NCBI RefSeq assembly: GCF_011799805.1
Contig: NZ_WXUB01000002.1
Location: forward strand, 186,001-250,000
Direction of reading: 5' to 3'
Length of the DNA: 64,000 nucleotides
Source of the DNA: Maribellus sediminis
GTDB lineage: Bacteria > Bacteroidota > Bacteroidia > Bacteroidales > Prolixibacteraceae
Made by a program: the position numbers and the translations under genes
Part shown: positions 3,370 through 33,058 of the stretch, in pieces
How positions within the stretch are numbered: the first letter of the stretch is position 1
Layout: each line of letters starts with the position of its first letter
Notes under the pieces: model-generated
What the model was told of the DNA's origin: nothing
Seen by the model: the letters and a program-made list of their open reading frames with translations, nothing else
The model's database searches: none

Positions 3370-4518
3370 ATGGGGCCTATCATATCGATATATAATCCAT
3401 CAAAGCTGGTTTTTGGGGCTGATAGCTTCTCTTCCTTTGTTGCCGATATTATTACATCGGGTGCAAAACGCATTTTTATTTTAACCGTTTCCGAAATCCT
3501 GGAGCAGGTTGAATCGGGTTTTGCACAAATTCGTAATTCAGGTTGCGAAGTTGCAGTCAATACCGATATCAGACAAGAACCTTCGTTCGACGATTATAAA
3601 AAACTGTTGGCAAAAGTCGATCAGTTTAATCCGGATGCGGTTGTTGGAATAGGAGGAGGAAGTGTGCTTGATGCTGCAAAGCTGATTGCTGCGACTACCG
3701 GAAACGAAGTAAAAATTGAAGAGTTTTTAAAGGGAAATAAGAAACTAAACCGGAATACGCAACTGATATGCCTTCCTACTACTTCTGGTACCGGAAGCGA
3801 AGTTTCGCCAAATGCCATTTTTTTCGATCCTGAAACCGGAGGCAAGGTTGGAGTTATCGATCCGCAACTTGTTCCCGATGCAGCATACATCGATCCGATG
3901 TTGACCATTAGTGTGCCGCCTGCCGTTACAGCTTCTACCGGTCTCGATGCTTTAACGCATTGCATTGAAGCTTATGCGAACCGTTTAGCAAATCCGATTA
4001 ACGATTTGCTGGCTTTTGAAGGCATAAGGCTGATCGGACAAAACTTAAAAACAGCTTTCGAAAACGGTAACGATGTAAAAGCACGCGAGAAGGTAGCCCT
4101 GGGAAGTATGTATGGAGGAATGTGTCTGGGGCCGGTAAATACAGGAGCCGTGCATGCCTTGGCCTACCCACTCGGAAGCAACTATAAGATTGCACATGGT
4201 GTGTCGAATGCCATGTTGCTGCCTTTTGTGTTGGAATATAACCTGGAAGCTGCGGAAGAGAAATATGCCAATGTAGCCTTAGCATTGGGTGTTGACGACG
4301 AAGGCAACGATAAAGAAACGGCTTTGGCGGGAATTCAGTTGATTCGTGAAATGATTCGGGATTTTAAAATTCCAGGAAGTTTGTCCGACTTGAATATTGG
4401 CGAAAATGAAATTGAGGAAATGGCGCATTCGGCACTAAAAATTCAGCGCTTACTAAAAAACAACGTACGCGAGGTGAAACTGCAGGATGCCATTGATATT
4501 TATACGAAAGCAAAGTGA
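3370..4518 (+). CDS. Iron-containing alcohol dehydrogenase
   Basis: A 382-residue group III (iron-dependent) alcohol dehydrogenase, the usual family length. The NAD-binding GIGGGSVLDAAK motif is at about 94-104. The metal-ligand pattern is intact: D193 and H197 (GLDALTHC), H262 (GAVHALAYPLG) and H276 (IAHGVSNA). No signal peptide, so cytoplasmic. It overlaps the next gene by one base (TGATG) and is the first of five tightly coupled genes, so it should act on an intermediate of the same pathway. I infer reduction of a four-carbon aldehyde acid to a threonate-type acid. The family alone does not fix the substrate; a fructuronate- or lactaldehyde-type reductase is also possible. Confidence 0.93.
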   Translation: MGPIISIYNPSKLVFGADSFSSFVADIITSGAKRIFILTVSEILEQVESGFAQIRNSGCEVAVNTDIRQEPSFDDYKKLLAKVDQFNPDAVVGIGGGSVLDAAKLIAATTGNEVKIEEFLKGNKKLNRNTQLICLPTTSGTGSEVSPNAIFFDPETGGKVGVIDPQLVPDAAYIDPMLTISVPPAVTASTGLDALTHCIEAYANRLANPINDLLAFEGIRLIGQNLKTAFENGNDVKAREKVALGSMYGGMCLGPVNTGAVHALAYPLGSNYKIAHGVSNAMLLPFVLEYNLEAAEEKYANVALALGVDDEGNDKETALAGIQLIREMIRDFKIPGSLSDLNIGENEIEEMAHSALKIQRLLKNNVREVKLQDAIDIYTKAK

Positions 4519-5432
4519 TGAAGAGCGATTTGAAAAAATATGAAGGTGTAATTGTGCCTATGGTAACACCGGTTAATGCTGATTATTCCATCGATAAAAA
4601 AGCGGTAGGAAAAATCATCAATTCATTTATTGATGCCAAAGTGCTGCCATTTGTTTTGGGTACAACCGGGGAGGTAGCGTCGCTTTCACCCAGTCAGAAA
4701 ACTACGCTGGTTAAGGAAGCAGTTGATGCAGTGGATGGGAGAGCACCTTTATTTGCAGGTCTGGCCGGTAACTCCATTCTGCAAACCATCGACGAAGCAA
4801 AACGATATACCGATATGGGAGTTAATGCACTTGTTGCTCTGGCTCCCAACTATTATCCCATCGAAGCGAAACATGCTCTGAAGTGGTTCGAAAAACTGGC
4901 TGACAGTGTAACCTTGCCTTTGTTTTTATACAACATCCCGGCAACTACACATCATTCTATCTCGCTTGATGTGGTGGAAACGATGAGCCATCATCCGAAT
5001 ATAGTCGGTATTAAGGATTCGGAAAACAACCAGACCCGCTTGGAAGAATCGCTGGAAAGATGGGCTTCGCGCGAGGACTTTTTATTTTTGGTAGGTTGGG
5101 CGGCTATGTCGGCTTTCGGATTAAAACGTGGAGCCAATGGAATCGTCCCGAGTGCGGCCAACCTCATTCCTGAATTGTATGCGGGATTATATGAAGCTGC
5201 AAAAAATAACGATTTTGTTGAAGCTGAAAGAATTCAGGGACTCACCGACAAAGTTTCGGCTTACAACCAAAGTGGCCGAACTGTAACAGAAGCCATTCCT
5301 GCACTTAAAGCACTGATGTCGTTAAAAGGATTGTGCGGAACGCAGGTAATGCCGCCAATGTTACAAATGGAAGAAGCAGAATTGAAAGCTTACCTGGATG
5401 AAATGGAAAATAAAATACTGAACCTGGCTTAA
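4518..5432 (+). CDS. DapA/NanA-family aldolase (dihydrodipicolinate synthase family)
   Basis: A 304-residue class I aldolase of the DapA/N-acetylneuraminate lyase superfamily with a TIM-barrel fold. The GTTGE loop is at 48-52, the catalytic Tyr is in YNIP (Y138) and the Schiff-base Lys is in GIKDS (K166). An in-frame GTG at 4515 exists, but the ATG at 4518 overlapping the upstream stop is the better start. Family members form or cleave bonds to pyruvate, or dehydrate keto-deoxy sugar acids. The neighbouring PdxA and DUF1537 genes argue against lysine biosynthesis and for retro-aldol cleavage of a 2-keto-3-deoxy sugar acid to pyruvate plus an aldehyde. The substrate proposed here, Dha from RG-II, is inference. 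Confidence 0.9.
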   Translation: MKSDLKKYEGVIVPMVTPVNADYSIDKKAVGKIINSFIDAKVLPFVLGTTGEVASLSPSQKTTLVKEAVDAVDGRAPLFAGLAGNSILQTIDEAKRYTDMGVNALVALAPNYYPIEAKHALKWFEKLADSVTLPLFLYNIPATTHHSISLDVVETMSHHPNIVGIKDSENNQTRLEESLERWASREDFLFLVGWAAMSAFGLKRGANGIVPSAANLIPELYAGLYEAAKNNDFVEAERIQGLTDKVSAYNQSGRTVTEAIPALKALMSLKGLCGTQVMPPMLQMEEAELKAYLDEMENKILNLA

Positions 5433-5443
5433 CAGGAAAATAT

Positions 5444-6475
5444 ATGAACGGTACTAAACCAATTTTAGCAATCACGATGGGAGATCCGGCCGGTATCGGT
5501 CCGGAAATCGCCATAAAAACATTCGAAAATCCTGAACTTCATAACTTGTGTCGCCCGATACTTGTGGGCAATACGGCCATTATGGAGCAGGCACTTCAGT
5601 TTTCAGAAAACGCTTTGCTGGTTAAAAAGATTGAAAGCGTTAAAACTGCCACTTTCGAACCGGGAGTAATGGAGGTTTTGGATATTGATCTGGAACCTGG
5701 ACAACCCATTCATTTTGGTGAAATTTCAGCGACTGCCGGCAATCTTGCTTTTCACTCGGTTGTAAAAGCTATCGAACTGGCAAAAAGTGGCGAAGTTGAC
5801 GGGACGGTTACAAATCCTATTCATAAAAAAGCTATTAACGAGGCAGGTCATCATTTTTCGGGACACACCGAAATTTATGCCGAATACACGAATACGCCAA
5901 AATATGCCATGTTGCTTGCCGACGATGCTATTAAAGTAATTCACGTGAGCACACATGTTTCGTTGCGCAAAGCTTGCGACCTGGTAAAAAAAGCGCGTGT
6001 GCTTGAAGTGATTGAGATCATGAATGCAGGTCTGAAACGACTTGGAATTTTGAATCCGAGAATTGGTGTAGCCGGATTAAATCCGCATGCAGGCGACGAA
6101 GGATTGTTTGGCGACGAGGAGATCAACGAAATAAGTCCGGCCATTAAAGAAGCCCGTAGCAAAAGGATTGATGTAACAGGGCCGGTACCACCCGATACTT
6201 TATTTGCACTAGCCAGCGGTGGCCGGTTCGACGGGTGTGTGGCCATGTATCACGACCAGGGGCATATTCCGTTTAAACTGACCGGTTTTCACTGGGACCA
6301 GGAAAAAGGGAAAATGAAAAGCGTGAACGGTGTGAACATCACTTTGGGGCTCCCGATCATCCGCACATCGGTTGATCATGGAACCGCTTTCGAAATAGCC
6401 GGAAAAGGAATAGCCAGTCCCGATGCATTGTTGAACGCAGTTCAATATGCAGTAAAACTGACAAGGAACAAATAA
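5444..6475 (+). CDS. PdxA-family 4-phospho-acid sugar dehydrogenase (PdxA2-type)
   Basis: A 343-residue protein of the 4-hydroxythreonine-4-phosphate dehydrogenase family. It has the N-terminal GDPAGIGPE motif at 13-21, GHTE at 140-143, and the three metal-ligand histidines H171 (VSTHVS), H215 (LNPHAG) and H270 (YHDQGH). PdxA proper serves vitamin B6 synthesis. PdxA2 members encoded beside DUF1537 kinases are known to oxidise 4-phospho-threonate or erythronate, with decarboxylation to dihydroxyacetone phosphate. The DUF1537 kinase is the next gene (21-bp gap), so the catabolic role is favoured. Cytoplasmic and NAD-dependent by family. Confidence 0.9.
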   Translation: MNGTKPILAITMGDPAGIGPEIAIKTFENPELHNLCRPILVGNTAIMEQALQFSENALLVKKIESVKTATFEPGVMEVLDIDLEPGQPIHFGEISATAGNLAFHSVVKAIELAKSGEVDGTVTNPIHKKAINEAGHHFSGHTEIYAEYTNTPKYAMLLADDAIKVIHVSTHVSLRKACDLVKKARVLEVIEIMNAGLKRLGILNPRIGVAGLNPHAGDEGLFGDEEINEISPAIKEARSKRIDVTGPVPPDTLFALASGGRFDGCVAMYHDQGHIPFKLTGFHWDQEKGKMKSVNGVNITLGLPIIRTSVDHGTAFEIAGKGIASPDALLNAVQYAVKLTRNK

Positions 6476-6496
6476 TATAAAAAGAAGAATTGCTAA

Positions 6497-7678
6497 ATGA
6501 TTGCAATAATTGCAGATGATTTTACAGGAGCCGCCGAGATTGGAGGGGTTGGATTAAAGTACGGGCTCAATGTGGTCATCGAAACTAAGTTTGAAAACAA
6601 CGTTTCGGTTGATCTTTGGATTATTGCTGCAGATACCCGCTCACTTTCTGCGAAAGAAGCCTCAAAAGAAATCGAAAAGATTACCACCCAGTTACAGGTA
6701 AAAAATCCAAAATACATATTTAAAAAGCTGGATTCGGTTTTGCGGGGCAATATTGCTATCGAGATCGAAGCACAATTAAAGGCAATGGGTAAGAGTCGGG
6801 CTATTTTAATAGCAGGAAATCCTTCATTCGGAAGAACAATAGAAAATGGCAAGTACCTCGTGGATAATATTCTACTTGAAAATACTTCATTCTCTGAGGA
6901 TCCAGATTTTCCATTACAATCTTCCAATGTTTTAGATATTGTCAAGTCGACCGATATAAGCGTTTACTCCATACCTGTGAATTCAGAATTACCTGAGAAA
7001 GGCATAATTATTGGTGATGTAAAGAACCAGGAAGAAATGGAATATTGGGCGGATCAACTCGATGAAAATACAATGGTGGCAGGCGGGGCCGGTTTTTTCG
7101 ATGTTTTATTGAGTAAAAATCACCACGAAAATATAAGTGATTGTCGGGGCTGTCTCGAACTTGGCAATAAAACACTGTTCATTTTTGGTAGCAAATTTCC
7201 CAAAGATCAAAACCTGCCGATGGGGATTAAGAAAGAAGAAACCGTGAGGCTGAACATGCCCGATGAAATATACGGAAACCGGGATTTTAGTCCGGAGCTT
7301 ATACTGGTTTGGGCCAATCAGATTGTTGCTGAGCTCGAAGGCGGAAAGAAGGTGATAGTTACTATTGAGCAGGATTATAGTAATGAAGATCGTCTGTCGG
7401 CCAGAATTCGTAAAAATATTGCCGAGATGGTAAAAACAGTTGCTGAAACTACCGAACTTACCGATTTGCTTATGGAAGGAGGGGCAACTACTTCGGAAAT
7501 TTTGAGGACACTTGAAATTGTAAAGCTTTTCCCTACGAAATTATTATACCCGGGAATCATACAGCTTTCAACCAGCAAGTATCCGGGGCTTACGATCACC
7601 ACAAAACCCGGGAGTTACCCCTGGCCCGATAATGTAATGCTAAATTTAACCGATAACGAAGAACTTGAACAAACCTGA
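6497..7678 (+). CDS. Four-carbon acid sugar kinase (DUF1537; DtnK/OtnK family)
   Basis: A 393-residue two-domain acid-sugar kinase. The N-terminal sugar-binding domain begins with IADDFTGA at 4-11 and contains KKLDSVLRGN at about 75-84. The C-terminal nucleotide-binding domain has EGGATTSEI and ends in TTKPGSYPWPDN. Characterised relatives phosphorylate D-threonate, L-threonate or D-erythronate on O4 with ATP, feeding PdxA2 or OtnI/OtnC pathways. Pairing with the adjacent PdxA gene indicates the threonate/erythronate to dihydroxyacetone phosphate route. The stop codon shares one base with the start of the symporter gene (TGATG), implying translational coupling. Which C4 acid is used cannot be read from sequence. 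Confidence 0.9.
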   Translation: MIAIIADDFTGAAEIGGVGLKYGLNVVIETKFENNVSVDLWIIAADTRSLSAKEASKEIEKITTQLQVKNPKYIFKKLDSVLRGNIAIEIEAQLKAMGKSRAILIAGNPSFGRTIENGKYLVDNILLENTSFSEDPDFPLQSSNVLDIVKSTDISVYSIPVNSELPEKGIIIGDVKNQEEMEYWADQLDENTMVAGGAGFFDVLLSKNHHENISDCRGCLELGNKTLFIFGSKFPKDQNLPMGIKKEETVRLNMPDEIYGNRDFSPELILVWANQIVAELEGGKKVIVTIEQDYSNEDRLSARIRKNIAEMVKTVAETTELTDLLMEGGATTSEILRTLEIVKLFPTKLLYPGIIQLSTSKYPGLTITTKPGSYPWPDNVMLNLTDNEELEQT

Positions 7679-9246
7679 TGAACAATACATCAATACATAT
7701 CATCGACTGGATCATTATCATTGCCACTTTTGTCCTCACAATAGGAGTAGGATTATACTTTTCGAAACGGCAAAAAGATACTGGCAATTATTTTAAGGCG
7801 GGTGGAAAAATTCCATCGTGGGCGATTGGAATGTCAATTTTAGCAACATTGATCAGCGCCGTTACTTTTCTGGCTTATCCGGGTGAAGGTTATTCATCTA
7901 ATTGGATTCGTTTAGTTCAGGGACTGATGGTACCGCTTGTGCTGGTGTTTATTGTTGGTATTATTGTGCCTCTTTTCCGAAAAGTGATCCGATTGAGTGC
8001 CTATGAATATTTCGAACGACGATTTGGATTTTTTGCCCGTTTGTACGCTTCACTTGGATTTGTCCTCAATCATTTTGCAAAAATGGGGACGGTTTTTTAT
8101 CTGGTTGCAGTTACTTTGAACGGGATGACCGGTATAAATACGGTTGTTATAATATTGGTGATTGGAGTAATTGTGGTACTCATCACCATGATAGGAGGAA
8201 TGGAGGCTGTTATATGGCTCGACGTGATACAGGGATTTTTATTGATAGTTGGAGGTTTAATCTCGCTTGGGATTTTGCTTTTCTCTGTTGACGGAGGACC
8301 ATCGGCAATTTGGAATGTAGCTATGGAAAACGGGCGAATCGGATTTGGTCCGTTCGACTTTGAATTTGTGCGGCTGACATTCTGGGTAATGGCACTTAAC
8401 GGAATCTTTTATGCCATCCAAAAATACGGAACCGACCAAACAATTGTTCAGCGCTACCTTGCTGCAAAAAACGATAAGGAAGCAGTAAAAGCTTCGTTGA
8501 TTGGCGTGTTGTTGAGTGTTCCGGTTTGGGCTTTATTCATGTTTATTGGTACGGCGCTATTTAGTTATTATAAAATTATGGGTGGCTTACCCGACGATAT
8601 TATCGGCGATCAGGTCTTTCCGCATTTTATTATGTCGAATCTACCAGTTGGAGTAGTAGGATTGATCTTGTCAGCGCTTATCGCGGCTGCATTTTCCAGT
8701 CTCGATTCCGATCTTAACTGTCTGTCAGCAATTTGTCTCGAGGATTATTACCTGAGATGGAAACCGGAGACTCCGGAAGCGAAACAATTAGTATTAAGTC
8801 GCTTATTTACCTTGTTTGCTGGTGTTGGTGCCATTGCTGTTGCCCTGTTCTATGTGGCTGCCGGAGGACAAGGAGTGCTGGGAATCATTTTTACCCTGTA
8901 CGCCATTTTCTCGGGCGGAATTGCAGGTATGTTTCTCCTCGGCATTTTTAGTAGAAAAGCCGGGAAGAAAGGTATTTATGCGGGAATCGCAGCCAGTATA
9001 TTATTTACACTTTATGCCTTGTTATCATCAACACCAATGGGTCTTGGCGAAAATAAAATTTTGTTGCTCGACCTCGGTAGGCTAAATTTTCATCAACATA
9101 AATATATGATTGGAGTTTACAGTCATATTGTACTGATGATAGTAGGGATTGTTACAAGTTACCTTGTTAACGAAAAGCCGGTGGATGACAGCCTTACGTA
9201 TTATGGCTGGTTAAAGTTAAAACGGGCAGATAAGAGAACTGAATAG
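7678..9246 (+). CDS. Sodium:solute symporter (SSS family)
   Basis: A 522-residue polytopic inner-membrane protein with about 13 hydrophobic segments, the usual size for sodium:solute symporters. Typical SSS features are an early SGGIAGMFLL-like helix, the GGMEAVIWLDVIQG segment and an AAFSSLDSDLNCLSAI helix resembling the conserved sodium-site region. It is translationally coupled to the kinase gene, so it probably imports the acid sugar degraded by the four preceding enzymes. The substrate is inferred from context; uronates and keto-deoxy acids are both plausible. Confidence 0.9.
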   Translation: MNNTSIHIIDWIIIIATFVLTIGVGLYFSKRQKDTGNYFKAGGKIPSWAIGMSILATLISAVTFLAYPGEGYSSNWIRLVQGLMVPLVLVFIVGIIVPLFRKVIRLSAYEYFERRFGFFARLYASLGFVLNHFAKMGTVFYLVAVTLNGMTGINTVVIILVIGVIVVLITMIGGMEAVIWLDVIQGFLLIVGGLISLGILLFSVDGGPSAIWNVAMENGRIGFGPFDFEFVRLTFWVMALNGIFYAIQKYGTDQTIVQRYLAAKNDKEAVKASLIGVLLSVPVWALFMFIGTALFSYYKIMGGLPDDIIGDQVFPHFIMSNLPVGVVGLILSALIAAAFSSLDSDLNCLSAICLEDYYLRWKPETPEAKQLVLSRLFTLFAGVGAIAVALFYVAAGGQGVLGIIFTLYAIFSGGIAGMFLLGIFSRKAGKKGIYAGIAASILFTLYALLSSTPMGLGENKILLLDLGRLNFHQHKYMIGVYSHIVLMIVGIVTSYLVNEKPVDDSLTYYGWLKLKRADKRTE

Positions 9247-11423: not shown

Positions 11424-14400
11424 ATGAGTAAAAACAGAACGAATCAAATCACGAAACAAATTTCGGGAACAATTCCCCAAAGGGTCATTGTCCTGATAGC
11501 TTTTATTGTGCAGTTGTTTGCCGTTTCAGTGGCGTTCGGGCAGAACCAAATTATGGTTAGCGGTAAGGTTACCGACAATAATGGCGAACCAATGGTGGGT
11601 GTAAACATCATTGTAAAAAACACGCTAAAAGGAACAGTAAGCGATATTGATGGAAACTACACTTTGTCGGTTGCTTCAACCGATACCTTGCAGGTTTCCT
11701 TTATTGGTTTCGTTCAGCAGTTTGTACCTGTAAAAGGGCGAACCTCAATAGATATTGCGCTGGAAGAGGCAACAACTGACCTCGATGAAGTTGTTGTAGT
11801 GGGGTATGGCGAAGTTAAACGGGCCAACCTGTTAGGATCTATCTCCAGTATTTCTGCTGATGAAATCGAGGATATTCCTGCTGTGAGTATGACCAACCTT
11901 TTAGAAGGACGAATGGCAGGTGTATCTGTTTCTCCAGCGCAACCAACTGGTAACCCGGGTGCTTCAACAAGGGTAACCATTCGAACTGAGACAACTTTTG
12001 GTAACTCGGGAGAAGGAGCAAAAGATCCTTCTCCGCTATATATCGTTGACGGTTTCGAGGTTTCACAGGAAGAATTTGATATTCTAGACCCTTCTGAGAT
12101 TGAAAGTTATTCGGTGCTGAAAGATGCTTCGGCCTCGGTCTATGGTAGTAAAGGAGCCAATGGTGTAATCCTTGTTAAAACAAAGCGTGGAAAAGAAGGT
12201 AAACTTCGTGTAAGTTATTCAGGGAGTGTGGGAGTCAGCGATGCAACCACTCAAACCGAAATGTTAAGTGCTTACGATCACGCGCGTATGATCAATGCAC
12301 GCTATCGCGACGATACTACAGCACTAATCAGTTCTGCGGAAATGGCTGATATGAAGAATCAGAATTTTCAGTGGTTGGATGAAGCCTGGCAAAAATCCAT
12401 GGTTACACGTCATACCGTTAATATTTCAGGGGGTAGCAAAGCTGTAAAATATTTTGCCGGAGGTACCTACATGTACACCGAAGGTAACTTTCCCGAAATG
12501 GGAGTTGGTAAATTTTCTTATCGTCTTGGAATTGACGCCAATATTACCGATCAATTAAAGGCTTCGGCAACTATTTCAATCGATAGCCGCGATTTCAAGC
12601 GTCCGTACATTTCCGGTGTTGGGTCAAATACCCTCGAAGACCTGTTTCAGCAGTTGTTGCAGGCACCAAAATGGACTCCGGCGTACATCGACGGTTACCC
12701 GGTTTCTAACAACCTTGACTTTAATCCTCTGTACTTGTTTGAGACCAACAGTTACAAACAGTCAGTTGATAAAGGACATACACTTAATTTAAATTTATCG
12801 TACGATTTCGAAAGGGTAAAAGGCTTAAGAGCTTCAGTTAGGTATAGCCGAAGAGAGGGACACAGTTATGCAAAAGATTACCTCGTTCCCTATACACTTT
12901 ATCAATTCAAACCACTTGGAAACGGGTATAAATATATATTGAGTAATGAAATTGAAGAGGTAGTTACCATACAAAACAATAACCGGATATCGGAAACATA
13001 CGGATACAACGAAAATTACCAGTTGAATGCCAGCTTAAATTATACCCGTACTTTTGGAAAGCACGATGTGGCTGCATTTTTTACGTACGAGCAGTCTGAA
13101 GGCAGGTCAAACGATTTTAGGGCAGTTGGTGAAAATATTGAAGTCTTTGGTCTGGAAAATCAAAATGCTTTTCAAACCAAAACTACTAGTGGTGGAATGT
13201 ACGAAAGTGGAGATATTGGAGCTGTATTTCGTTTGAATTATTCGTACGCTAACAAATACCTGTTCGAATCAGCCACGCGTTACGAAACCACAACCAAATT
13301 TGCGCCCGGAGAAAGGGAAGGAATTTTCCCGTCCGGATCAGTGGGTTGGGTGATCTCTGAAGAAAATTTTATGAAAGATAATGTTAGTGCCATCAACTTT
13401 ATGAAATTAAGATTCTCCATAGGTTTGACTGGCTATGCTTCGGTTTCTCCGTACGAATATGAATTGCAATATGCATTGAAAACCAGCAACGATCGTTACC
13501 TGTTCGGAGGTGATTCACCGGTTGGAGGTATTGGCATTGGAGGAAAAACCGATGTGGTAAGTTCCGGTGTAAGTTGGGAGAAATCATTGATGCACAACCT
13601 TGGGCTCGACATGAAATTCTTTAACAATAAGCTAGGACTCTCATTCGATGCCTACTATACTTATCAGTACGATATCCTTGACAAACGTACGGTAGAATTC
13701 CCCGAGACTGCCGGATTAGGTGTGATGCCGGGGGAAAACCTTGGCCGTCTCGAAGCCTGGGGGTACGACATGTCGATCAATTACCACGGAAGGATTACAG
13801 ATGACATTTATTTTGATATAACCGGAATTTTCAACTATGGTACAAACCGTATTATCGAACGTCCAACTGAGTATATTCCCGATGATTTCAGGTATCCGAT
13901 CGGTCAAAGTACAATGGCGGCTGGACGTGAAGAAGGATTTATTTCTAACGGAATCATTCGCACCCAGGAACAACTTGATGCTTTAAATGCACAATGGCAG
14001 CAATTGTGGGGTCACGATTACATGATTGAGGGTCGACCTGTAAGTTTGGGAGCCCTGATTTTTGAAGATATTGGTCGTCCGGGTAACACCGGCGCCGGTG
14101 AGCCAAGAACCGTTTTCGAACCAGATGGTGTAATTAACGAATACGACAAAAAATATGTTGAACGTGTGGGCGATGAATTAAGCTGGAAACACATGCTGCC
14201 AACCAGCATCAATATTGGTGGAGGATGGAAAGATCTGAAAATTACAACGCTGTGGACCATGGAATACGGTATTCGCAACCAGGCCGTCGATAAACTGGCA
14301 AGGACAGTACCTACAACCAGTGAAAACTCGCCGGCTTTCTGGAGCGATTTTTGGACTCCGGAAACTCCCAATGCAGCTTACCCAAGTCCATATTATGCAA

Positions 14401-14654
14401 GTTCCGACCAATGGGTGTCAACTTTCTGGATGAAAGATGTTTACCAGTTAAGGTTGAGGACCTTGAACATTTCTTACAGCATTCCAAAAGAACTGTCGAA
14501 AAAATGGGGTGTTCCCGAATTGCGCGTCTACTTTGTAGGAACCAACTTATGGTCACCCATTCAGACGTTTGATTATAAGGAAGATGCGATCGCAAGGTAC
14601 AACACCTATCCTCTGCTTAAAACTTTTAGTTTTGGCTTAAGCTTTAAAATATAG
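11424..14654 (+). CDS. susC: SusC/RagA-type TonB-dependent outer-membrane transporter (first pair)
   Basis: A 1076-residue SusC-family receptor. Order: signal peptide ending near FGQ (residue 39), carboxypeptidase-regulatory-like domain (VSGKVTDNNGEPMVGVN, about 44-125), a TonB-box-like DEVVVVGYGEVKR, a plug domain (PLYIVDGFEV, ASVYGSKGANGVILV) and a 22-strand barrel ending in an aromatic-rich FGLSFKI. It works with the SusD lipoprotein encoded 45 bp downstream to import oligosaccharides across the outer membrane, powered by TonB. The surrounding lyases and GH140 indicate a pectin-derived ligand, possibly RG-II fragments. Confidence 0.97.
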   Translation: MSKNRTNQITKQISGTIPQRVIVLIAFIVQLFAVSVAFGQNQIMVSGKVTDNNGEPMVGVNIIVKNTLKGTVSDIDGNYTLSVASTDTLQVSFIGFVQQFVPVKGRTSIDIALEEATTDLDEVVVVGYGEVKRANLLGSISSISADEIEDIPAVSMTNLLEGRMAGVSVSPAQPTGNPGASTRVTIRTETTFGNSGEGAKDPSPLYIVDGFEVSQEEFDILDPSEIESYSVLKDASASVYGSKGANGVILVKTKRGKEGKLRVSYSGSVGVSDATTQTEMLSAYDHARMINARYRDDTTALISSAEMADMKNQNFQWLDEAWQKSMVTRHTVNISGGSKAVKYFAGGTYMYTEGNFPEMGVGKFSYRLGIDANITDQLKASATISIDSRDFKRPYISGVGSNTLEDLFQQLLQAPKWTPAYIDGYPVSNNLDFNPLYLFETNSYKQSVDKGHTLNLNLSYDFERVKGLRASVRYSRREGHSYAKDYLVPYTLYQFKPLGNGYKYILSNEIEEVVTIQNNNRISETYGYNENYQLNASLNYTRTFGKHDVAAFFTYEQSEGRSNDFRAVGENIEVFGLENQNAFQTKTTSGGMYESGDIGAVFRLNYSYANKYLFESATRYETTTKFAPGEREGIFPSGSVGWVISEENFMKDNVSAINFMKLRFSIGLTGYASVSPYEYELQYALKTSNDRYLFGGDSPVGGIGIGGKTDVVSSGVSWEKSLMHNLGLDMKFFNNKLGLSFDAYYTYQYDILDKRTVEFPETAGLGVMPGENLGRLEAWGYDMSINYHGRITDDIYFDITGIFNYGTNRIIERPTEYIPDDFRYPIGQSTMAAGREEGFISNGIIRTQEQLDALNAQWQQLWGHDYMIEGRPVSLGALIFEDIGRPGNTGAGEPRTVFEPDGVINEYDKKYVERVGDELSWKHMLPTSINIGGGWKDLKITTLWTMEYGIRNQAVDKLARTVPTTSENSPAFWSDFWTPETPNAAYPSPYYASSDQWVSTFWMKDVYQLRLRTLNISYSIPKELSKKWGVPELRVYFVGTNLWSPIQTFDYKEDAIARYNTYPLLKTFSFGLSFKI

Positions 14655-14699
14655 AAAGTAAAAGGAAAGTAATTAAAGAACATTTTAAAATTGAAAAAG

Positions 14700-16544
14700 A
14701 TGAAAATCAAAATACAACATACGAATTCACTTCCTTTGGCTTTAGTTATTCTGGTTTTAATGCTGGTATTTCCGTCATGTCAGGATGTGTTAGATAAAAG
14801 AGACCTTAACGTTCTAAGCGAGGAGATTTGGAACGACGAGGATCAGGCAACATTGTACGTTAATAACTTGTATAACGATAACATGCCAAAAACTTATTTT
14901 GGCACCAACAGTCAATTAAGCGACGAAACCTATTCAGCTGATCTTCAATATGGTGACTTGTTATACGGATTCAAAACTCCAAGTGATATCAACTCAGTTA
15001 CCGTAATGCACAAAGATAAATATGCGCTGATTCGCAGAATCAATATTGCACTAGAAGGTTTGGATGGATCGAACCTCAGTACTGAGGTGAAAGCACCTCT
15101 TCGCGGTCAGGCTTTGTTTTTCAGAGCATGGCGAAACTGGGAAATGGTACGTTTATATGGCGGCATTCCAATTATTAATACAGTTCAGGATCCTTATACC
15201 GAGGATTTGAACGTAGCAAGGAGCACAACTGCTGCTTCAATTGATGCTATTGTTGCTGATTTAGACGAAGCAATAACTTTGTTGCCCACCGACTGGACTT
15301 TCGATAACGATAAAGGCCGGATTACCCGTGGTGCAGCTGCAGCCTTTAAAGGCCGGATTCTGCTGAACTGGGCAAGTCCGTTATTCAATAGAAATAACGT
15401 TCAGAGTCGCTGGCAAAGAGCTTATAATGCCAACCTGGAGGCTCTGAGTATTTTAGCTCAACAGAATATTCCAGGTGCATTGTACCCCGATTATTCCGGA
15501 ATTTTTACTTCTGATGTTACCTCAAATCCTGAGGCGATTATTTACCGTCGTTTTAGTTTGAGTGCAGGAACGGCTTACACGCAAGGGTGGGAAAACAGTG
15601 TGCGTCCTCCTTCAGGTGGTGGAAATGGCGGATACACCCCAACCTGGCAGTTGATTGAAGCTTTCCCGATGGCGAACGGTAAACTCACCCACGAAGAAGG
15701 TTCAGGATACGATTCGACATATTTCTGGCAAAATCGTGATCCACGCTTATATGCTACCATCGCTTATAATGGAGACCAATGGGAAATGAGTGGCCGCGAC
15801 CAGGTAAATGTATGGACATTCAGAAACACCAAAGAACTAAACCGTGTACCAAGTTCGGGCTTTTACAATAAGAAGGCGACTGATCCAACAATCGCTCGCG
15901 AAGATATCAATCAGACCAGCACATCCTGGATTGAACTGAGATATGCCGAAGTGTTACTGAATTTTGCCGAATGTGCCAACGAATTGGGAAAAACAGCCGA
16001 GGCGCTCGAAAAAGTAAGAGCTATTCGAGAGCGCGCTGGCATCGAAGCCGCTGACGGAAGTTACGGTATCGATAATTCAGTTTCAAAAGAGGTGCTAAGG
16101 CAAATTATTATGATAGAAAGACAAGTGGAATTTGCTTTCGAAAATAAACGCTACTGGGATATTCGCCGTAGATTGATGTTCCGTGAGGACCTTGGCGAGT
16201 ATGTGAAAAAGCTTAACGGTACAATGAGAACGGGATTTACCTATCGTACCATTGGTGCCTGGGGTCGTGAAATAACCGACGAATCGTCGCCTTATTACGG
16301 ACAGTTACGTATTGATGAGGCATTGGCCAAAGGTGATCTCAATCTGGATGATATTGAAAGTTCGGGTAAGTATTTTTCACAAACCGAGAAAGTGCTTGAC
16401 GTTTACTTGGGAAGCAATCAAACCATAAATTACCTGGAACTCTACGACTTTTTTGCCATACCGACATCCATGATAGAAAAAAGTCCTGCCGTAGAACAGA
16501 CAGCAGGATGGCTGAACGGTACATTTGATCCGCTGGCTGAATAA
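14700..16544 (+). CDS. susD: SusD/RagB-type surface glycan-binding lipoprotein (first pair)
   Basis: A 614-residue SusD family lipoprotein. The signal peptide ends in a lipobox (LVFPSC, Cys at about 27 from the ATG). The ATG at 14700 is preferred over an in-frame TTG at 14691. Typical SusD features: an early EEIWNDEDQATLYVNNLY segment, the TPR-like RGQALFFRAW...MVRLYGGIP helix region, ELRYAEVLLNFAECANELG, and FAFENKRYWDIRRR near the C-terminus. It caps the SusC barrel of the preceding gene and binds the glycan on the cell surface. Confidence 0.96.
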   Translation: MKIKIQHTNSLPLALVILVLMLVFPSCQDVLDKRDLNVLSEEIWNDEDQATLYVNNLYNDNMPKTYFGTNSQLSDETYSADLQYGDLLYGFKTPSDINSVTVMHKDKYALIRRINIALEGLDGSNLSTEVKAPLRGQALFFRAWRNWEMVRLYGGIPIINTVQDPYTEDLNVARSTTAASIDAIVADLDEAITLLPTDWTFDNDKGRITRGAAAAFKGRILLNWASPLFNRNNVQSRWQRAYNANLEALSILAQQNIPGALYPDYSGIFTSDVTSNPEAIIYRRFSLSAGTAYTQGWENSVRPPSGGGNGGYTPTWQLIEAFPMANGKLTHEEGSGYDSTYFWQNRDPRLYATIAYNGDQWEMSGRDQVNVWTFRNTKELNRVPSSGFYNKKATDPTIAREDINQTSTSWIELRYAEVLLNFAECANELGKTAEALEKVRAIRERAGIEAADGSYGIDNSVSKEVLRQIIMIERQVEFAFENKRYWDIRRRLMFREDLGEYVKKLNGTMRTGFTYRTIGAWGREITDESSPYYGQLRIDEALAKGDLNLDDIESSGKYFSQTEKVLDVYLGSNQTINYLELYDFFAIPTSMIEKSPAVEQTAGWLNGTFDPLAE

Positions 16545-20197: not shown

Positions 20198-20205
20198 ATT
20201 TGAAT

Positions 20206-20871
20206 ATGAAGATTAAACATACAATACTGTTTTTAGGAATTCTGCTGACAAGTTTTTCCCTTTCAGCACAACAAGAAGTTGAATCACCGCAGGATGAGTA
20301 TACCAAGGTGATCACTGGTCGTGCCGACAAAATCGTCGACGGAATGGAGTTTGCAGATCAGGCTGTTAAAATCCAGGTGCGCGATATCATTGTTGAACAC
20401 TATCGTTTTCTGAATGATGCTGAAGAAGCACGGAATGCCGATGTTGCTAAAATCCGCGAAGAATACGCCGATCAAAAAGAATTGCGCGACGCAAAAATCG
20501 ATCTTCGGAAAGCTGAGCAGGAGCTCAAAATCAGAGATCATCATTTTTCATTTTGTTCGCAACTTAAAAATCTTATTTCCGAAGAGCAGATTGATCAGGT
20601 AAAAGACGGATTGACCTACAACGTTTTAAATGTAACTTACGCAGCCACATTGGATATGATTCCCACTTTAACGGATGAGGAGAAAGCGCAGATAAAAGTC
20701 TGGCTCACCGAAGCCCGCGAACATGCCATCGACGGTGGTTCTTCGAAAGAAAAACACGGGTGGTTTGGTAAATACAAAGGACGAATTAACAACTACCTCT
20801 CGGCAAGAGGTTACGATTTACAGGCCGAGCGAAAAGCCTGGGAAGAACGTTTGAAAGAAGAGAAAAAGTGA
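20206..20871 (+). CDS. DUF3826 domain protein, secreted
   Basis: A 221-residue exported protein: signal peptide to about SAQ (residue 22), then a charged, mainly alpha-helical body (DEYTKVITGRADKIVDGMEF, KEEKK at the C-terminus) matching the DUF3826 family as I recall it. The function is unknown. DUF3826 genes are frequent companions of pectin lyases in Bacteroidota loci. The high charge and helical content suggest a periplasmic accessory protein rather than an enzyme. The last bases overlap the GTG start proposed for the next gene (GTGA). Confidence 0.8.
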   Translation: MKIKHTILFLGILLTSFSLSAQQEVESPQDEYTKVITGRADKIVDGMEFADQAVKIQVRDIIVEHYRFLNDAEEARNADVAKIREEYADQKELRDAKIDLRKAEQELKIRDHHFSFCSQLKNLISEEQIDQVKDGLTYNVLNVTYAATLDMIPTLTDEEKAQIKVWLTEAREHAIDGGSSKEKHGWFGKYKGRINNYLSARGYDLQAERKAWEERLKEEKK

Positions 20872-24016: not shown

Positions 24017-25417
24017 ATGAAACAAGTTCTGGCAATACTGGGATTGATAATTGTTTTTGCATGTACGCCAACAGAAAAGAAACAGCATGAAGAACCGGCA
24101 GGTTTACCCTTGTTGAAAGTATCGGAAAATGGCCGTTTTCTCGAAACCGAAGATGGCGATCCCTTCTTTTGGCTGGGCGATACAGGCTGGCTACTGTTCT
24201 CGAAACTTACTCGCGAGGAAGCGGAAAAGTACCTTGACAATCGTGTGGAAAAAGGTTTTAATGTAATTCAGGTGATGGTCGTTCACAGCATAAGTGTTTG
24301 TAATATTTACGGCGATTCGGCATTGGTAAACGGGAATGTGGCACAACCTAACACTACGCCTGGAAGTGATTTCAACGATCCTGAAGCTTACGATTTTTGG
24401 GATAATATGGACTATGTTATCAATCTGGCAGAAAAAAAGGGACTGTACATGGCACTGGTACCGGTTTGGGGAACCAATGTAAAAGAAGGTGGAGTAAGCC
24501 GCGAACAGGCTGATGTTTATTCCACATGGCTGGCCAAGCGATATGCCGGTAAATCGAACATCATCTGGCTGAACGGTGGCGATACACACGGAAATGATTC
24601 TACTTCTACCTGGAATATTATCGGGGAGAACATTCATAAATACGCTCCTAATCATTTGGAAACTTTCCATCCTTTTGGGAGAACGCAGTCGTCGCTGTGG
24701 TTTCATAATGCCGACTGGCTCGATTTTAACATGTTCCAGAGCGGACATCGCCGTTACGATCAGGATGATACTGAAAAAGCTTACGGACAGGATAATTACA
24801 AATACGTTCGCGACAATTATGCCATGGTTCCGCCAAAACCAACGATTGATGGAGAACCATCTTACGAAGGTATTCCGCAGGGATTACACGATCCGGCCGA
24901 GCCATTTTGGAACGACGCCGACTTGCGCCGCTATGCTTACTGGTCGGTATTTGCAGGTGGATTTGGTTTTACTTACGGAAACAGTGCCGTAATGCAGTTT
25001 TACAAACCAAGCGACGAAACACCGGCTTACGGAGCGCGTGAATACTGGACCGAAGCTATTGATATGCCCGGAGCCGGACAGATGCAGTACCTGAAAACGC
25101 TGATGCTCTCAAAACCTTATTTCGAACGGGTACCTGATCAGAGTTTAATTGCCGGCGTACAGGGAGAAAAATACGATTATCTGGCGGCAACACGAGGCGA
25201 AAATTATGCAATGATCTACACTTACAATGGAAGAAACTTGGACATTGCTATGGGCAAAATTGCCGGTGAAAGAGTAAATGCCTGGTGGTTCAATCCACGA
25301 AACGGCGAATTAACAACGATCGGTTCTTTTGAAAATACGGGAGAACATCTTTTCGATCCTCCGGGTGAAGTGGTAGATGGAAATGATTGGGTACTGGTTT
25401 TAAATTCTGTTGAATAA
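24017..25417 (+). CDS. GH140-family apiosidase-like lipoprotein (DUF4038)
   Basis: A 466-residue lipoprotein (lipobox IIVFAC, Cys16). The glycosidase domain opens with DGDPFFWLGDTGWLLF, the hallmark of the DUF4038/GH140 family. Probable catalytic residues are D189 (WLNGGDTHG) and E280 (TIDGEPSYE). The C-terminal 90 residues form a beta domain (MIYTYNGRNLDIAMG, WWFNPRNG) like the collagenase-binding-like domain usually attached. Characterised GH140 cleaves the apiosyl-galacturonate link that attaches RG-II side chains A and B to the backbone. This is the clearest RG-II marker in the window. It overlaps the next gene by one base (TAATG). Confidence 0.88.
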   Translation: MKQVLAILGLIIVFACTPTEKKQHEEPAGLPLLKVSENGRFLETEDGDPFFWLGDTGWLLFSKLTREEAEKYLDNRVEKGFNVIQVMVVHSISVCNIYGDSALVNGNVAQPNTTPGSDFNDPEAYDFWDNMDYVINLAEKKGLYMALVPVWGTNVKEGGVSREQADVYSTWLAKRYAGKSNIIWLNGGDTHGNDSTSTWNIIGENIHKYAPNHLETFHPFGRTQSSLWFHNADWLDFNMFQSGHRRYDQDDTEKAYGQDNYKYVRDNYAMVPPKPTIDGEPSYEGIPQGLHDPAEPFWNDADLRRYAYWSVFAGGFGFTYGNSAVMQFYKPSDETPAYGAREYWTEAIDMPGAGQMQYLKTLMLSKPYFERVPDQSLIAGVQGEKYDYLAATRGENYAMIYTYNGRNLDIAMGKIAGERVNAWWFNPRNGELTTIGSFENTGEHLFDPPGEVVDGNDWVLVLNSVE

Positions 25418-26364
25418 TGAGAATTCTAAGAAATATTATTCCGCTTGTGTTGATCATTTTGTTTTTCGGATGTAAAAATGAAAAACAGGTATACCTGTTC
25501 AGCACTTTCCGCGAACCGGCCGACAAAGGTTTGTACCTGGCTTACAGTTACGATGGTTACACCTGGAACGATCTTGGCGGCGCATGGTTGGCTCCCGAAG
25601 TTGGACAACAAAAAGTAATGCGCGATCCATCGGTGGTAAAAGGTCCCGATGGAACTTTTCATATGGTCTGGACTTCCTCATGGAGAGGTGATCTGGGTTT
25701 TGGTTATGCGAGCTCAAAAGACCTCGTGAATTGGTCAGAAGAGCAATTTATTCCGGTGATGGCCTACGATACATCAACGGTGAATGTGTGGGCACCCGAA
25801 CTTTTTTACGACGACGAAAAGGATGAATACATCATTATCTGGGCCTCAACAATTCCGTTCAAATTCGAGAAAGGACAGGAGGAAGAGCGCAACAATCATC
25901 GGATGTACTACACAATCACTAAAGATTTTAAGGCATTTTCGGACACAAAGTTGTACCTCGATCCGGGTTTCAGTGTGATCGATTGCGTGATCGTAAAGCG
26001 TGGCAAAGGAGATTATGTCCTGGTTTTGAAAGATAATACCCGCCCGGAACGAAATATTAAAGTGGCTTTTGGAAATACTCCGCTTGGTCCCTGGAAAAAT
26101 ATCTCGGAGCCATTCACCGATAACTTTACGGAAGGGCCAACAGTCTTGCGTTTGGGCGATAAATATCTGATTTACTACGATTCGTATCGCGATAAGACCT
26201 ATTCAACTCAACTTACCACCGATTTTGAAATTTTTACCGACATTTCGGATGAAGTAAGTTTCCCTGAAGGACACAAACACGGAACGGTTTTTCAGGCCGA
26301 TGAAAAGATTTTGAATAATCTGATCAAAATATCAGAAGAGAAAAAGGAAGAAGGAAATGAGTAA
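25417..26364 (+). CDS. GH43-like five-bladed propeller glycosidase, lipoprotein
   Basis: A 315-residue lipoprotein (lipobox ILFFGC, Cys19). The GH43-type propeller shows an Asp in VMRDPSVV (D70), an acidic residue in VWAPELFYDD (E128) and a later FTEGPTV Glu; the spacing fits the Asp/Asp/Glu triad of GH43-like enzymes. The YLFSTFREPADKGLYLAYS opening is typical of short single-domain members in pectin loci. The likely substrate is an arabinofuranosyl or galactosyl side chain, unproven. Overlaps: one base with the GH140 gene before it and eight bases with the gene after it. Confidence 0.8.
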   Translation: MRILRNIIPLVLIILFFGCKNEKQVYLFSTFREPADKGLYLAYSYDGYTWNDLGGAWLAPEVGQQKVMRDPSVVKGPDGTFHMVWTSSWRGDLGFGYASSKDLVNWSEEQFIPVMAYDTSTVNVWAPELFYDDEKDEYIIIWASTIPFKFEKGQEEERNNHRMYYTITKDFKAFSDTKLYLDPGFSVIDCVIVKRGKGDYVLVLKDNTRPERNIKVAFGNTPLGPWKNISEPFTDNFTEGPTVLRLGDKYLIYYDSYRDKTYSTQLTTDFEIFTDISDEVSFPEGHKHGTVFQADEKILNNLIKISEEKKEEGNE

Positions 26365-29300
26365 GTGGATTCGAAATAGCATTCTTATATTTTTAACGGT
26401 AAGCGTATTCGGAGCGAATGCGCAGGATACGGTGCATTACGTTGGCGAAACTTTGGTGAACATCGATTACCACCACGGACAATTGAGTCCGGCACTTGGT
26501 GTGCACAATATTCAGGTAATGCGCGCCAATCGCGAGCAACCACAGTACGCCGACGATTTGGGCTGGACATACAACCACGCACCTAACCTGGCCTACTGGA
26601 ACAACACTTTTTACTATCATTACCTGAACGATCCGGTGGGCGAGCACATTCCACCCGGTCGCACTATGTTGCAGACTTCAAAAGATGGCTACAACTGGAC
26701 GAAACCAGTAACGCTTTTCCCTGAATACAAAGTGCCAAACGGATTTACAAAAGAAGGCGTGGAAGGCAGAGCCAAAAACCTGGTTGCTGTGATGCACCAG
26801 CGGATGGGCTTTTTTGTTTCTTCCGATAATCGCCTGCTGACGTTGGCTTTCTATGGAATTTCGCTGAATGAAAAAGACAGCCCCAACGACGGCAACGGCA
26901 TTGGCCGCGCTGTTCGCGAGATAAATGAAGACGGCAGTTTTGGTCCCATATATTTTATCCGATACAATCACGGATGGAGCGAAGAAAACACAGATTTTCC
27001 CTTTTACAAAAGTTGCGACGACAAAGGTTTTGTTGACGCCTGCGACGAGATGCTCGCCGATCCGCTGCAAATGCAACAGTGGGTGGAAGAAGCCGACCGC
27101 GACGATCCATTGATCCCGATTCAGAAAGAATACAAGGCATTCAATTTTTACCACGTTCCTGATGGAACAGTTGTAGGACTTTGGAAACATGCTCTTACTG
27201 CCACCAGTACTGATGAAGGAAAAACATGGACGGTGCCGCTGCGGGCTCCCGGTTTTGTAAATGCCAATGCCAAAATCTGGGGACAACGTACTTCGGATGG
27301 TAAATACCTCACCGTGTACAATCCTTCAGAATTTCGCTGGCCATTGGCACTTTCGGTAAGTAATGATGGCTTCGAATACGATAAATTACTTTTGGTGAAT
27401 GGCGAAATTTCTACCATGCGTTATGGCGGAAACTATAAATCGTATGGCCCGCAATATGTTCGTGGAATCCAGGAAGGAAATGGAACTCCGCCCGACGGAA
27501 ATGCCTGGGTGGCCTATAGCATGAACAAGGAAGACATGTGGATTTCGCGGATAAAAGTGCCGGTACTCGATCGTGAAGCGCAGGAGGTGAACGAAGTTTT
27601 TTCTGAAATTAAGGAAGGAACTGAACTCGACCGTTGGAACATTTACAGTCCGGTGTGGGCTCCAGTGAAAATAGAAAAAATAATCGACGAACGTGTTCTT
27701 TCCTTAAAAGACAAAGATGAATTCGACTTCGCCAAAGCTACCCGTTTATTTCCATCTACCAAGCAAGCAGATGTTGAATTCACCATAAAAACCGGGCAAA
27801 ACAATACGGGGAAACTTGACATAGAATTGCAGGATGCTAAAAACACTCCTGCCATTCGCCTAACATTTGACAACGACGGCTATTTAAAATACAAGGCCGG
27901 TTACCGGGTGAACAACCTGCGGGAATACGAAGCAGGCAAAGAATACATAATCCGCATTGTGGCAACCACGGAAGATCGTTTTTATAATGTTTATATTAAC
28001 GGAGAACAAGTGCTTCGACGCTTGTTTTTTGCGCCTGTTCATGAGTTAAACAAAATTGTTTTCAGAACCGGCGATGTGCGTCGTTTCCCTAATGCTGATA
28101 CACCAACCGATCAGGATTATGACGTGAAACAAAACGGGAAGCCGCTTTCTGAAGCTGCTTTCTACATCAAAAGTTTGAAAACACAGAATGCTGAAAGTGC
28201 TGCAATTCTAAAAGCGGATGACTACAAACATTACGTCGACTATTTCAACGGAATGGAAGATGAGAATATCATTCAGATGATCCCGAACTCGGAGTCGTGG
28301 AAATGGATGAAAAAAAATATTCCGCTGTTTGAATGTCCGCAGGAAAATTTCGAAGAGCTGTTTTACTATCGCTGGTGGAATTTGCGAAAACACATTAAAG
28401 AAACGCCTGTCGGCCTAGCAATGACCGAATTTTTGGTTGAAAGAAGCTATTCCGATAAATACAATCTGATTGCCTGTGCTATTGGCCATCATACTTACGA
28501 ATCGCGCTGGCTCCACAATCCTGAGTACGTAAAGCAGAATTTGAAAGTTTGGTATCGAGGAAATGAAGGGGGACCGATGAACAAATTACACAAGTTCAGC
28601 AGCTGGACACCCGATGCTGTTTACAATTATTACCTGCTCACCAGAGACACCGATTTTGTAGTTGATTTGCTTCCTGATTTGGAGGCCGATTACAGAAAAT
28701 GGGAACAGGAAAGAAGAAAACCGAGAGGAATGTTCTGGCAAGAAGATGTTAAAGACGGTATGGAAGAGCAGATATCGGGGGGAAGACGCGTGAAAAACGA
28801 GCGACCAACCATAAACAGCTACATGTTTGGAAATGCCGTAGCAATCTCGAAAATGGCTGCTTTGGCCGGAAAACCGGAATGGGAAAAACTATATGCCGCT
28901 AAAGCCGACACGATGAAACAACTGGTGGAACAAAACCTGTGGAATCCTGAAAGCAACTTTTTTGAAACGGTAAAAGAAGAGGGTGGTTTTGCTGAGGTTA
29001 GGGAAGCCATTGGTTACATTCCATGGTATTTTAACCTGCCTGAAAAAGGTTACGAAAAGGCATGGGAGCAAGTGAAAAATCCAGCAGGATTTCTGGCACC
29101 GTTTGGTTTGACGACAGCTGAGCAACGACACCCTGAATTCCGAACGCACGGTTGCTGCAAATGTGAATGGGACGGTGCTGTGTGGCCTTTTGCCACCTCG
29201 CAAACGCTTACCGGAATGGCAAATCTGCTGAATAACTATAATCAAAATGTGGTGAACGATTCGGTGTATTTCGATCTGTTGGAAACTTACGTGGAATCAC

Positions 29301-29662: not shown

Positions 29663-29681
29663 CATTTGAAAATTTAGATTG

Positions 29682-32980: not shown

Positions 32981-33058
32981 CCTCTCGCAAAGACGCAGAG
33001 TCGCAAAGAAATAATCTTGTAGACTTTGTGTATTAGCGAGATTAAAACCAATAAAACT

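Follow-up and report, generated by a model that had tools for sequence, protein, structure and literature searches.

A candidate pathway for the breakdown of the rare plant cell-wall sugar Dha in a rhamnogalacturonan II locus of Maribellus sediminis

Results

Gene run with five candidate Dha genes

The window in the present study is a stretch of 64,000 nucleotides from the 5.6-Mb genome of Maribellus sediminis (contig NZ_WXUB01000002.1, positions 186,001-250,000, forward strand). It carries five open reading frames (ORFs), all on the plus strand, that we propose to encode a pathway for 3-deoxy-D-lyxo-2-heptulosaric acid (Dha), a sugar of rhamnogalacturonan II (RG-II). These ORFs encode an iron-containing alcohol dehydrogenase (3370..4518; Fe-ADH and ADH_Fe_C), an aldolase of the DapA/N-acetylneuraminate lyase family (4515..5432; PF00701, DHDPS), a PdxA paralogue (5444..6475; PF04166 and TIGR00557), a DUF1537 four-carbon acid sugar kinase (6497..7678; SBD_N and NBD_C) and an SSS-family symporter (7678..9246; SSF and the sss superfamily model). 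The products are 382, 305, 343, 393 and 522 amino acids (aa) long, respectively. The first two genes overlap by 4 bp, gaps of 11 and 21 bp follow, and the last pair overlaps by 1 bp. The first-pass annotation, made from the letters alone, had described five tightly coupled genes of these families, and the ORF coordinates and Pfam scores above the curated cut-offs agree with it.

A gap of 271 bp lies upstream of position 3370. It is followed by a run of 19 plus-strand genes that extends to 34933 with no gap larger than 106 bp, and the ORFs listed on the minus strand within 3370-34933 overlap these genes. This layout fits the earlier suggestion that the five genes form the opening of an operon, predicted here at 3370-34933.

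The run was also said to carry RG-II-type enzymes, and its content proved richer than claimed. A GH140-type apiosidase (24017..25417, plus strand; PF13204 at 8.3e-113) and a GH141-type enzyme, which is the final gene of the run (33026..34933, plus strand; PF21231), are RG-II markers. Between them lies a gene (26357..29662, plus strand) for a protein with a sialidase-like propeller and an (alpha/alpha)6 domain (PF24067, Sialidase-like_CBM, BNR_2 and MGH1-like). The first-pass annotation correctly noted a propeller/(alpha/alpha)6 glycosidase, but missed that it is an orthologue of BT1020, an identity that strengthens the case for Dha. The protein aligns with PDB entry 5mqr over residues 22-1100, nearly its entire length, at 1580.7 bits. 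We take BT1020 to be a GH33-GH142 RG-II enzyme, with the release of Dha, reportedly described by Ndeh et al. in 2017, assigned to the N-terminal GH33-like part and the removal of the arabinofuranose cap to the GH142 part. The next gene (29679..30770, plus strand; PF13088 at 1.8e-91) encodes a stand-alone BNR_2 protein of the sialidase family, with sialidases among its PDB matches, which may be a ketosidase for Dha or 3-deoxy-D-manno-octulosonic acid (Kdo). Judged by eye, both proteins begin with a signal peptide. With the BT1020 orthologue, one gene run would encode candidates for both freeing and eating Dha.

Families and conserved residues of the five products

The aldolase belongs to the PF00701 superfamily and retains the catalytic residues: Lys167 and Tyr139, presumably the Schiff base and the proton relay, are invariant in 76 of 76 aligned homologues, as are Arg175 and Arg186. 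Its AlphaFold model (pLDDT 94.1) matched N-acetylneuraminate lyase 5c54 best in Foldseek (TM 0.89), and a DapA-family protein of Bacteroides thetaiotaomicron was another top match; these matches are informative at the family level only. The aldolase falls outside dihydrodipicolinate synthase (DHDPS), scoring 160.3 bits with TIGR00674 against a cut-off of 206.15. The position five residues after the catalytic Tyr, which we take to be a functional Arg in DHDPS and which is Arg in the Aquifex enzyme 2ehh, is T in 72 homologues, M in two, S in one and unread in one, with no Arg in the 75 readable sequences. The aldolase is also the weakest of the five DHDPS-profile matches in the window genome. 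These three properties make a role in lysine synthesis unlikely.

In the kinase, SBD_N scored 122.6 bits (cut-off, 25) and NBD_C 31.0 bits (cut-off, 28.3), which places it in the DUF1537 family. K77, D79, S80, R83 and G84 are invariant in 81 of 81 aligned homologues, and H171, H215 and H270 of the PdxA paralogue in 79 of 79; we presume that all of these are catalytic positions. D193, H197, H262 and H276 of the dehydrogenase, presumably metal ligands, are invariant in 69 of 69.

The PdxA paralogue passes the PdxA family model TIGR00557 (355.8 bits; cut-off, 290.35). It is the second PdxA copy of the genome and adjoins the DUF1537 gene, while the housekeeping copy lies elsewhere. In a tree of 29 PdxA proteins, for which the program gave a long-branch warning, eight housekeeping proteins were separated from sixteen proteins of five-gene sets with support of 100/100. 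Five ungrouped rows, which are plasmid-borne or lie beside other DUF1537 genes, fell on the side of the five-gene sets.

Co-occurrence with BT1020-type enzymes

Below, handles beginning with G and L denote genomes and loci. Among 41 relatives, the kinase was counted at E < 1e-100 and a BT1020-type protein at PF24067 E < 1e-115. The kinase was strong in five genomes (G000, G003, G007, G009 and G030) and gave a weak match in G020; PF24067 reached its threshold in exactly the same five. Fisher's test, uncorrected for kinship, gave p values of 1.3e-6 for this strict count and 2.8e-5 when all seven genomes at PF24067 E < 1e-80 were included. G001 and G020 have only a shorter and more distant PF24067 version of approximately 620 aa (E 1e-85 to 1e-105), which is a second copy in G003 and G007 and also occurs in kinase-negative genomes. 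G032 and G038 gave weak partial matches. A second PdxA copy was limited to the five kinase genomes and G020, in which another DUF1537/PdxA pair lies in a different context. The locus is largely conserved in G003, in G009 and in G007, the last a relative from the same genus as the window, with some genes split, doubled or outside the stretch read; in G030 it is divided between two contigs, and BT1020 is broken up into two genes. The iron dehydrogenase ORF of G007 (L021, 12712-13683) is short at 323 aa, through truncation or a sequencing error.

The kinase alignment, run against 84,980 species genomes, gave 146 relatives, and the best 80 loci were analysed. All five genes were present in 70 of the 80 loci, in the same order and on the same strand in 67 of the 70, and in 61 of the 65 loci that were at least 20 kb long. 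With such figures for content, order and strand, the arrangement is not due to chance. Genome-level counts are based on 79 kinase-clade genomes, with L075 left out. Whether the set co-occurs with GH33/GH142 and GH140 genes had been raised by the first-pass annotation, and it does: PF24067 was present in 74 of the 79 (69 at E < 1e-115), on the kinase contig in 55 and at most 50 kb away in 52, and GH140 was also present in 74. The stand-alone BNR_2 protein was found in 73 at E <= 1e-40. Within the stretches read, 36 of the 80 loci had at least one homologue of eight chosen run genes near the kinase.

In four relatives (L076 and L099, Spirosoma; L088, Arsenicibacter; L104, a metagenome-assembled genome [MAG] of Chitinophagaceae), the symporter forms a single fused protein with a domain that shows homology to the N-terminal part of the protein at 30776-32980 of the window. 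This fusion ties the transporter to the RG-II run. The fused ORFs are 873-997 aa long, and the domain, whose counterpart in the window had no Pfam match, resembles an alpha/beta hydrolase by motif. In Flavobacterium L065 and Dyadobacter L059, the set is immediately preceded by a gene for a LacI-type regulator.

We also examined an even sample of 392 genomes of the phylum, in which PF24067 was counted at E < 1e-90 and only four candidates were scored for many genomes. The count of the kinase clade excludes a borderline DUF1537 match in G322 (E 2.7e-56) and six others that were weaker. PF24067 was present in 3 of 5 kinase-clade genomes versus 19 of 387 others (p 0.0014), a weak association with only five positives.

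Two Melioribacteraceae loci, L120 and L062, carry five or four of the genes without a PF24067 protein. The L120 set adjoins a GntP permease, a sulfatase and a BNR_2 protein, and that of L062 a GH127-type gene; these sets perhaps act on Dha from algal walls. Dha also occurs in the scales and thecae of some green algae, according to PMC10762512. Locus L103 of Planctomycetota has the kinase, PdxA and symporter, with neither dehydrogenase nor aldolase in the 21 kb read.

Related sets on plasmids

When 72,556 plasmid records were searched for PdxA, those of Enterococcus raffinosus and Subdoligranulum variabile ranked first. Both carry PdxA and a BNR_2 protein grouped with diverged homologues of the kinase, the dehydrogenase and the aldolase. 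A transporter of the citrate/dicarboxylate type and a PrpR-type regulator are also encoded in both. A YhcH-family protein is encoded in the Enterococcus and Pantoea versions. The transporter and YhcH fit a dicarboxylic ulosonic acid.

The BNR_2 protein of this set matched 317 plasmid records, mostly of Rhizobium (128), Sinorhizobium (78) and Pantoea (27). We picked 16 loci from a 40-row even spread and read 7 kb per side at five of them and 10 kb per side at the other eleven. At 14 of the 16, a dehydrogenase, a DapA-family gene and PdxA lie near a BNR_2 gene for an 'exo-alpha-sialidase', and a kinase is present at 10; the two misses are a sialic acid cluster of Ligilactobacillus and an archaeal plasmid. 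No kinase was found in the stretches read at L168, L172 and L173 (Pantoea), and the annotation of L169 places one at the cut edge of the stretch. Where BLAST aligned them, the plasmid enzymes were 23-55% identical to the window proteins. The sets differ in gene order, transporter and regulator, which makes a simple carry-over of one operon an unlikely origin for what they share. In these hosts the module adjoins a GH33-like gene, and Niallia L167 is the one exception among the loci read. The plasmid BNR_2 proteins start without an obvious signal peptide by eye, unlike the BNR_2 and BT1020-type proteins of the window. Some ORFs of L178 and L180 are short or run together, with kinases of 191 and 242 aa and, in L180, PdxA and dehydrogenase in one frame of 846 aa.

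Second aldolase type

A second type of DapA-family aldolase was present in 45 of the 78 genomes searched. In 22 of the 78 it lies within 50 kb of BT1020; these comprise 19 genomes of the kinase clade and three without the kinase (G269, G199 and G285). The copies at L104 (301-1275), L147 (17383-18360; G269) and L106 (G118, C26:62519) are 67-72% identical to the G269 copy and approximately 26-27% identical to the window aldolase, and an SSS symporter adjoins the gene in G269 and L106. This enzyme is a candidate for the Kdo branch, and its position near BT1020 leaves another enzyme for Kdo. The window genome had no match to it at E <= 1e-60, so the aldolase of the five-gene set might also take Kdo there. 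A third, NanA-like type occurs with an SSS symporter at L072 (14271-15236).

Other genes of the window

By Pfam, the run further encodes Por secretion tail proteins, a SusC/SusD-type outer-membrane uptake pair (11424..16544, plus strand; Plug and CarboxypepD_reg domains, SusD), the order of which is kept in G003, G007 and G009, a pectate-lyase-like protein, DUF3826 (20200-20871) and DUF6298 (20868-24014) proteins, a GH43-like protein and a protein with a C-terminal AP_endonuc_2 domain. Pfam gave no family for 18471-20156. This protein and those with DUF3826 and DUF6298 recur in RG-II-type loci of distant genomes. A second pectin locus at 39793-60911 contains SusC/SusD-type genes, GH28, GH43, three pectinesterase genes and GDSL esterases.

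Discussion

Proposed pathway

We re-derived the stereochemistry of Dha, in which the hydroxyls at C4, C5 and C6 point left, left and right. A cut between C3 and C4 yields pyruvate and a four-carbon aldehyde acid with its hydroxyls left and right, which is D-threuronate, a dihydroxy-succinic semialdehyde. Reduction of the aldehyde gives D-threonate, phosphorylation gives D-threonate 4-phosphate, and oxidation and decarboxylation of the PdxA type give dihydroxyacetone phosphate (DHAP). This derivation upholds the stereochemical argument of the first-pass annotation. The same type of cleavage converts sialic acids, Kdn and Kdo to neutral or amino sugars. To our knowledge, Dha is the only known ulosonic acid from which it gives a four-carbon acid.

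We propose that the BT1020-type enzyme, perhaps with the BNR_2 protein, frees Dha from chain D of RG-II outside the cytoplasm and that the SSS symporter brings it in. The DapA-family aldolase would then split Dha between C3 and C4 to pyruvate and D-threuronate, and the iron dehydrogenase would act as a D-threuronate (2,3-dihydroxy-succinic semialdehyde) reductase to form D-threonate. The DUF1537 enzyme would be a D-threonate 4-kinase, and the PdxA paralogue a D-threonate 4-phosphate dehydrogenase of the PdxA2 type that oxidises and decarboxylates its substrate to DHAP. The net reaction would be Dha + ATP -> pyruvate + DHAP + CO2 + ADP, with the NAD(P)H spent by the reductase regained in the PdxA step.

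Across several phyla, genes for a GH33-like enzyme, a pyruvate aldolase, an iron dehydrogenase, a kinase for four-carbon acids and a PdxA paralogue remain linked despite low sequence identity. A substrate other than a seven-carbon 3-deoxy-2-keto aldaric acid would hardly account for this linkage, and Dha is the acid of this kind known from plants. We consider it likely that the five-gene set is a breakdown pathway for Dha, and the route appears to be a well-supported new pathway built from known enzyme families. Its support is comparative rather than biochemical: we observed the gene families, the integrity of key residues, a conserved linkage and the joint occurrence with GH33-like enzymes, and from these we infer all substrates, products and the direction of transport.

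Several results weigh against this assignment. The best NCBIfam model for the kinase is D-threonate kinase NF047819, but it scores 122.8 bits against a cut-off of 450 and is, therefore, not filed as DtnK. The PdxA paralogue likewise fails the D-threonate 4-phosphate dehydrogenase model PRK03371 (346.4 bits; cut-off, 583). With matches so far under the cut-offs, these subfamily models leave the substrates unsettled. The PDB label of 5mqr is beta-L-arabinobiosidase. GH140 is as frequent as PF24067 in the kinase-clade genomes, and co-occurrence by itself thus fails to set Dha apart from the other RG-II sugars. PF24067 was not found in five of these 79 genomes (G055, G066, G072, G074 and G075), whose loci are from four MAGs (L042, L053, L061 and L062) and one isolate (Dyadobacter bucti, L059). 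Of the 74 matches, five do not reach E < 1e-115: G069, G085, G089 and G115 have a distant version, in or near the range of the relative also found in kinase-negative genomes, and that of G077 covers 34 positions. In the phylum sample, two of the five kinase-clade genomes, one of which is that of L062, lacked PF24067. Moreover, 19 of the 22 PF24067-positive genomes lacked the kinase clade, and no five-gene set was found in the neighbourhoods of 10 of these 19 (20 kb each; 60 kb for seven), three of which (G269, G199 and G285) have the other DapA-family gene close to BT1020. It thus seems that many RG-II degraders do without the five-gene route. On plasmids, no kinase was found near three Pantoea sets (L165, L166 and L173), and Niallia L167 has the four enzymes with no BNR_2 gene in the 19 kb read; L165, L166 and L167 are outside the 16-locus count.

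Other substrates and roles

The aldolase may instead serve Kdo, or Kdo together with Dha, from chain C of RG-II, with the kinase, PdxA and dehydrogenase acting elsewhere. It lies within the N-acetylneuraminate lyase superfamily, Kdo is part of the same polymer as Dha, and one enzyme may do both in the window genome, which is without a second aldolase at the threshold used. However, cleavage of Kdo gives D-arabinose and has no need of the other three enzymes, yet these accompany the aldolase over several phyla. The second aldolase near BT1020 in 19 kinase-clade and three kinase-negative genomes is a better candidate for Kdo, and the Bacillota versions carry a citrate/dicarboxylate-type transporter; we regard this alternative as unlikely. 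Degradation of apiose or apionate freed by GH140 deserves hardly any credence. GH140 does lie in the run and in 74 of the 79 kinase-clade genomes, a DUF1537 enzyme is the kinase of a known apionate route, and G072 and G074 have the kinase and GH140 without PF24067. Nevertheless, neither compound is chemically a substrate for an aldolase of 2-keto-3-deoxy acids, and the alcohol at C3 of apionate is tertiary and so closed to oxidation by a dehydrogenase of the PdxA type. G069 and G085 hold the five genes and a weaker PF24067 protein (E about 1e-95) within 10 kb, with no GH140, and the plasmid versions adjoin sialidase-family genes.

DUF1537/PdxA pairs without an adjoining aldolase exist (G020, G322 and Rhizobium L164), and DUF1537 enzymes can also salvage 4-hydroxythreonine, according to PMC10971088. 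The set may, thus, be a four-carbon module for free D-threonate or a related acid, or for vitamin B6 salvage, with the aldolase as DapA of the lysine pathway. This appears very unlikely: a housekeeping PdxA is present elsewhere in the genome, the aldolase departs from DHDPS in score, rank and the residue after Tyr as described above, and dehydrogenase and aldolase stay with the kinase in 70 of the 80 loci. It is slightly less likely still that Dha is the substrate but that its four-carbon aldehyde acid is oxidised to D-tartrate, or that the dehydrogenase acts on another intermediate. Although the direction of an iron dehydrogenase is not readable from its sequence, several named models that it matches are aldehyde reductases (lactaldehyde and sulfoacetaldehyde), and the kinase and PdxA complete a route, with redox balance, only via the reduced acid.

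Distribution and significance

A wider claim has an even chance of being correct: that an aldolase, a threuronate reductase, a threonate kinase, PdxA2 and usually a GH33-like ketosidase form a general module for Dha utilisation, which is not peculiar to Bacteroidota but has also reached at least Ignavibacteriota, Pseudomonadota and Bacillota. The module would be common on rhizobial megaplasmids, the 'exo-alpha-sialidases' of which would be hydrolases for Dha of RG-II, and plant-wall Dha would be a nutrient of the rhizosphere.

According to a 2025 review (PMC12168206), Dha is one of two ulosonic acids known in plants from RG-II only, and its nucleotide form in plants is undefined. It sits in chain D under arabinofuranose, as stated in PMC12282258. 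We found no description of a catabolic route for Dha in the literature searched, which agrees with the first-pass annotation; subscription papers were mostly outside this search, and an earlier report is possible. If our proposal is correct, bacterial use of this rare plant cell-wall acid sugar gains a route, each step of which is open to a simple assay.

Comparison with known systems

D-threonate catabolism by DtnK and PdxA2 was reportedly described by Zhang et al. in 2016. As in that route, a DUF1537 kinase adjoins a PdxA paralogue in the window, and the proposed end product is DHAP. PMC10971088 and PMC9997740 cover catabolism of D-threonate by these two enzymes, and the former includes DtnK in the DUF1537 family. 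In contrast, D-threonate would be made inside the cell by the aldolase and iron dehydrogenase, rather than imported. The window kinase also belongs to a distant clade: across most of its length, its identity to the plasmid DUF1537 kinases among the matches listed does not exceed 28%.

Sialic acid catabolism, with its GH33 sialidase, transporter, NanA aldolase and YhcH-type protein, shares GH33-like release, SSS uptake and a DapA-superfamily aldolase that forms pyruvate. The YhcH-family genes of the Enterococcus and Pantoea versions are a further likeness, as one is present in the sialic acid cluster of Ligilactobacillus. However, the second product is passed there to an epimerase and an amino-sugar kinase, whereas here it would enter the dehydrogenase, DUF1537 kinase and PdxA. 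In the HpaI route, 4-hydroxy-2-ketoheptanedioate is cleaved to pyruvate and succinic semialdehyde, so that the same seven-carbon dicarboxylic 2-keto skeleton undergoes the same cut and a semialdehyde follows. Dha differs in having two extra hydroxyls, and with the HpaI-type model for DapA-family proteins the aldolase scored 105.2, far short of the cut-off of 396.7.

Lastly, the RG-II loci of B. thetaiotaomicron presumably carry BT1020, GH140 and GH141, and the same glycosidase types are present in the locus of the window. Among the best 80 of the 146 kinase loci, there was no named Bacteroides species, only the MAG Bacteroides sp. SM23_62_1. The difference from the B. thetaiotaomicron loci is that, in M. 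sediminis, the candidate intracellular genes for Dha are part of the gene run itself.

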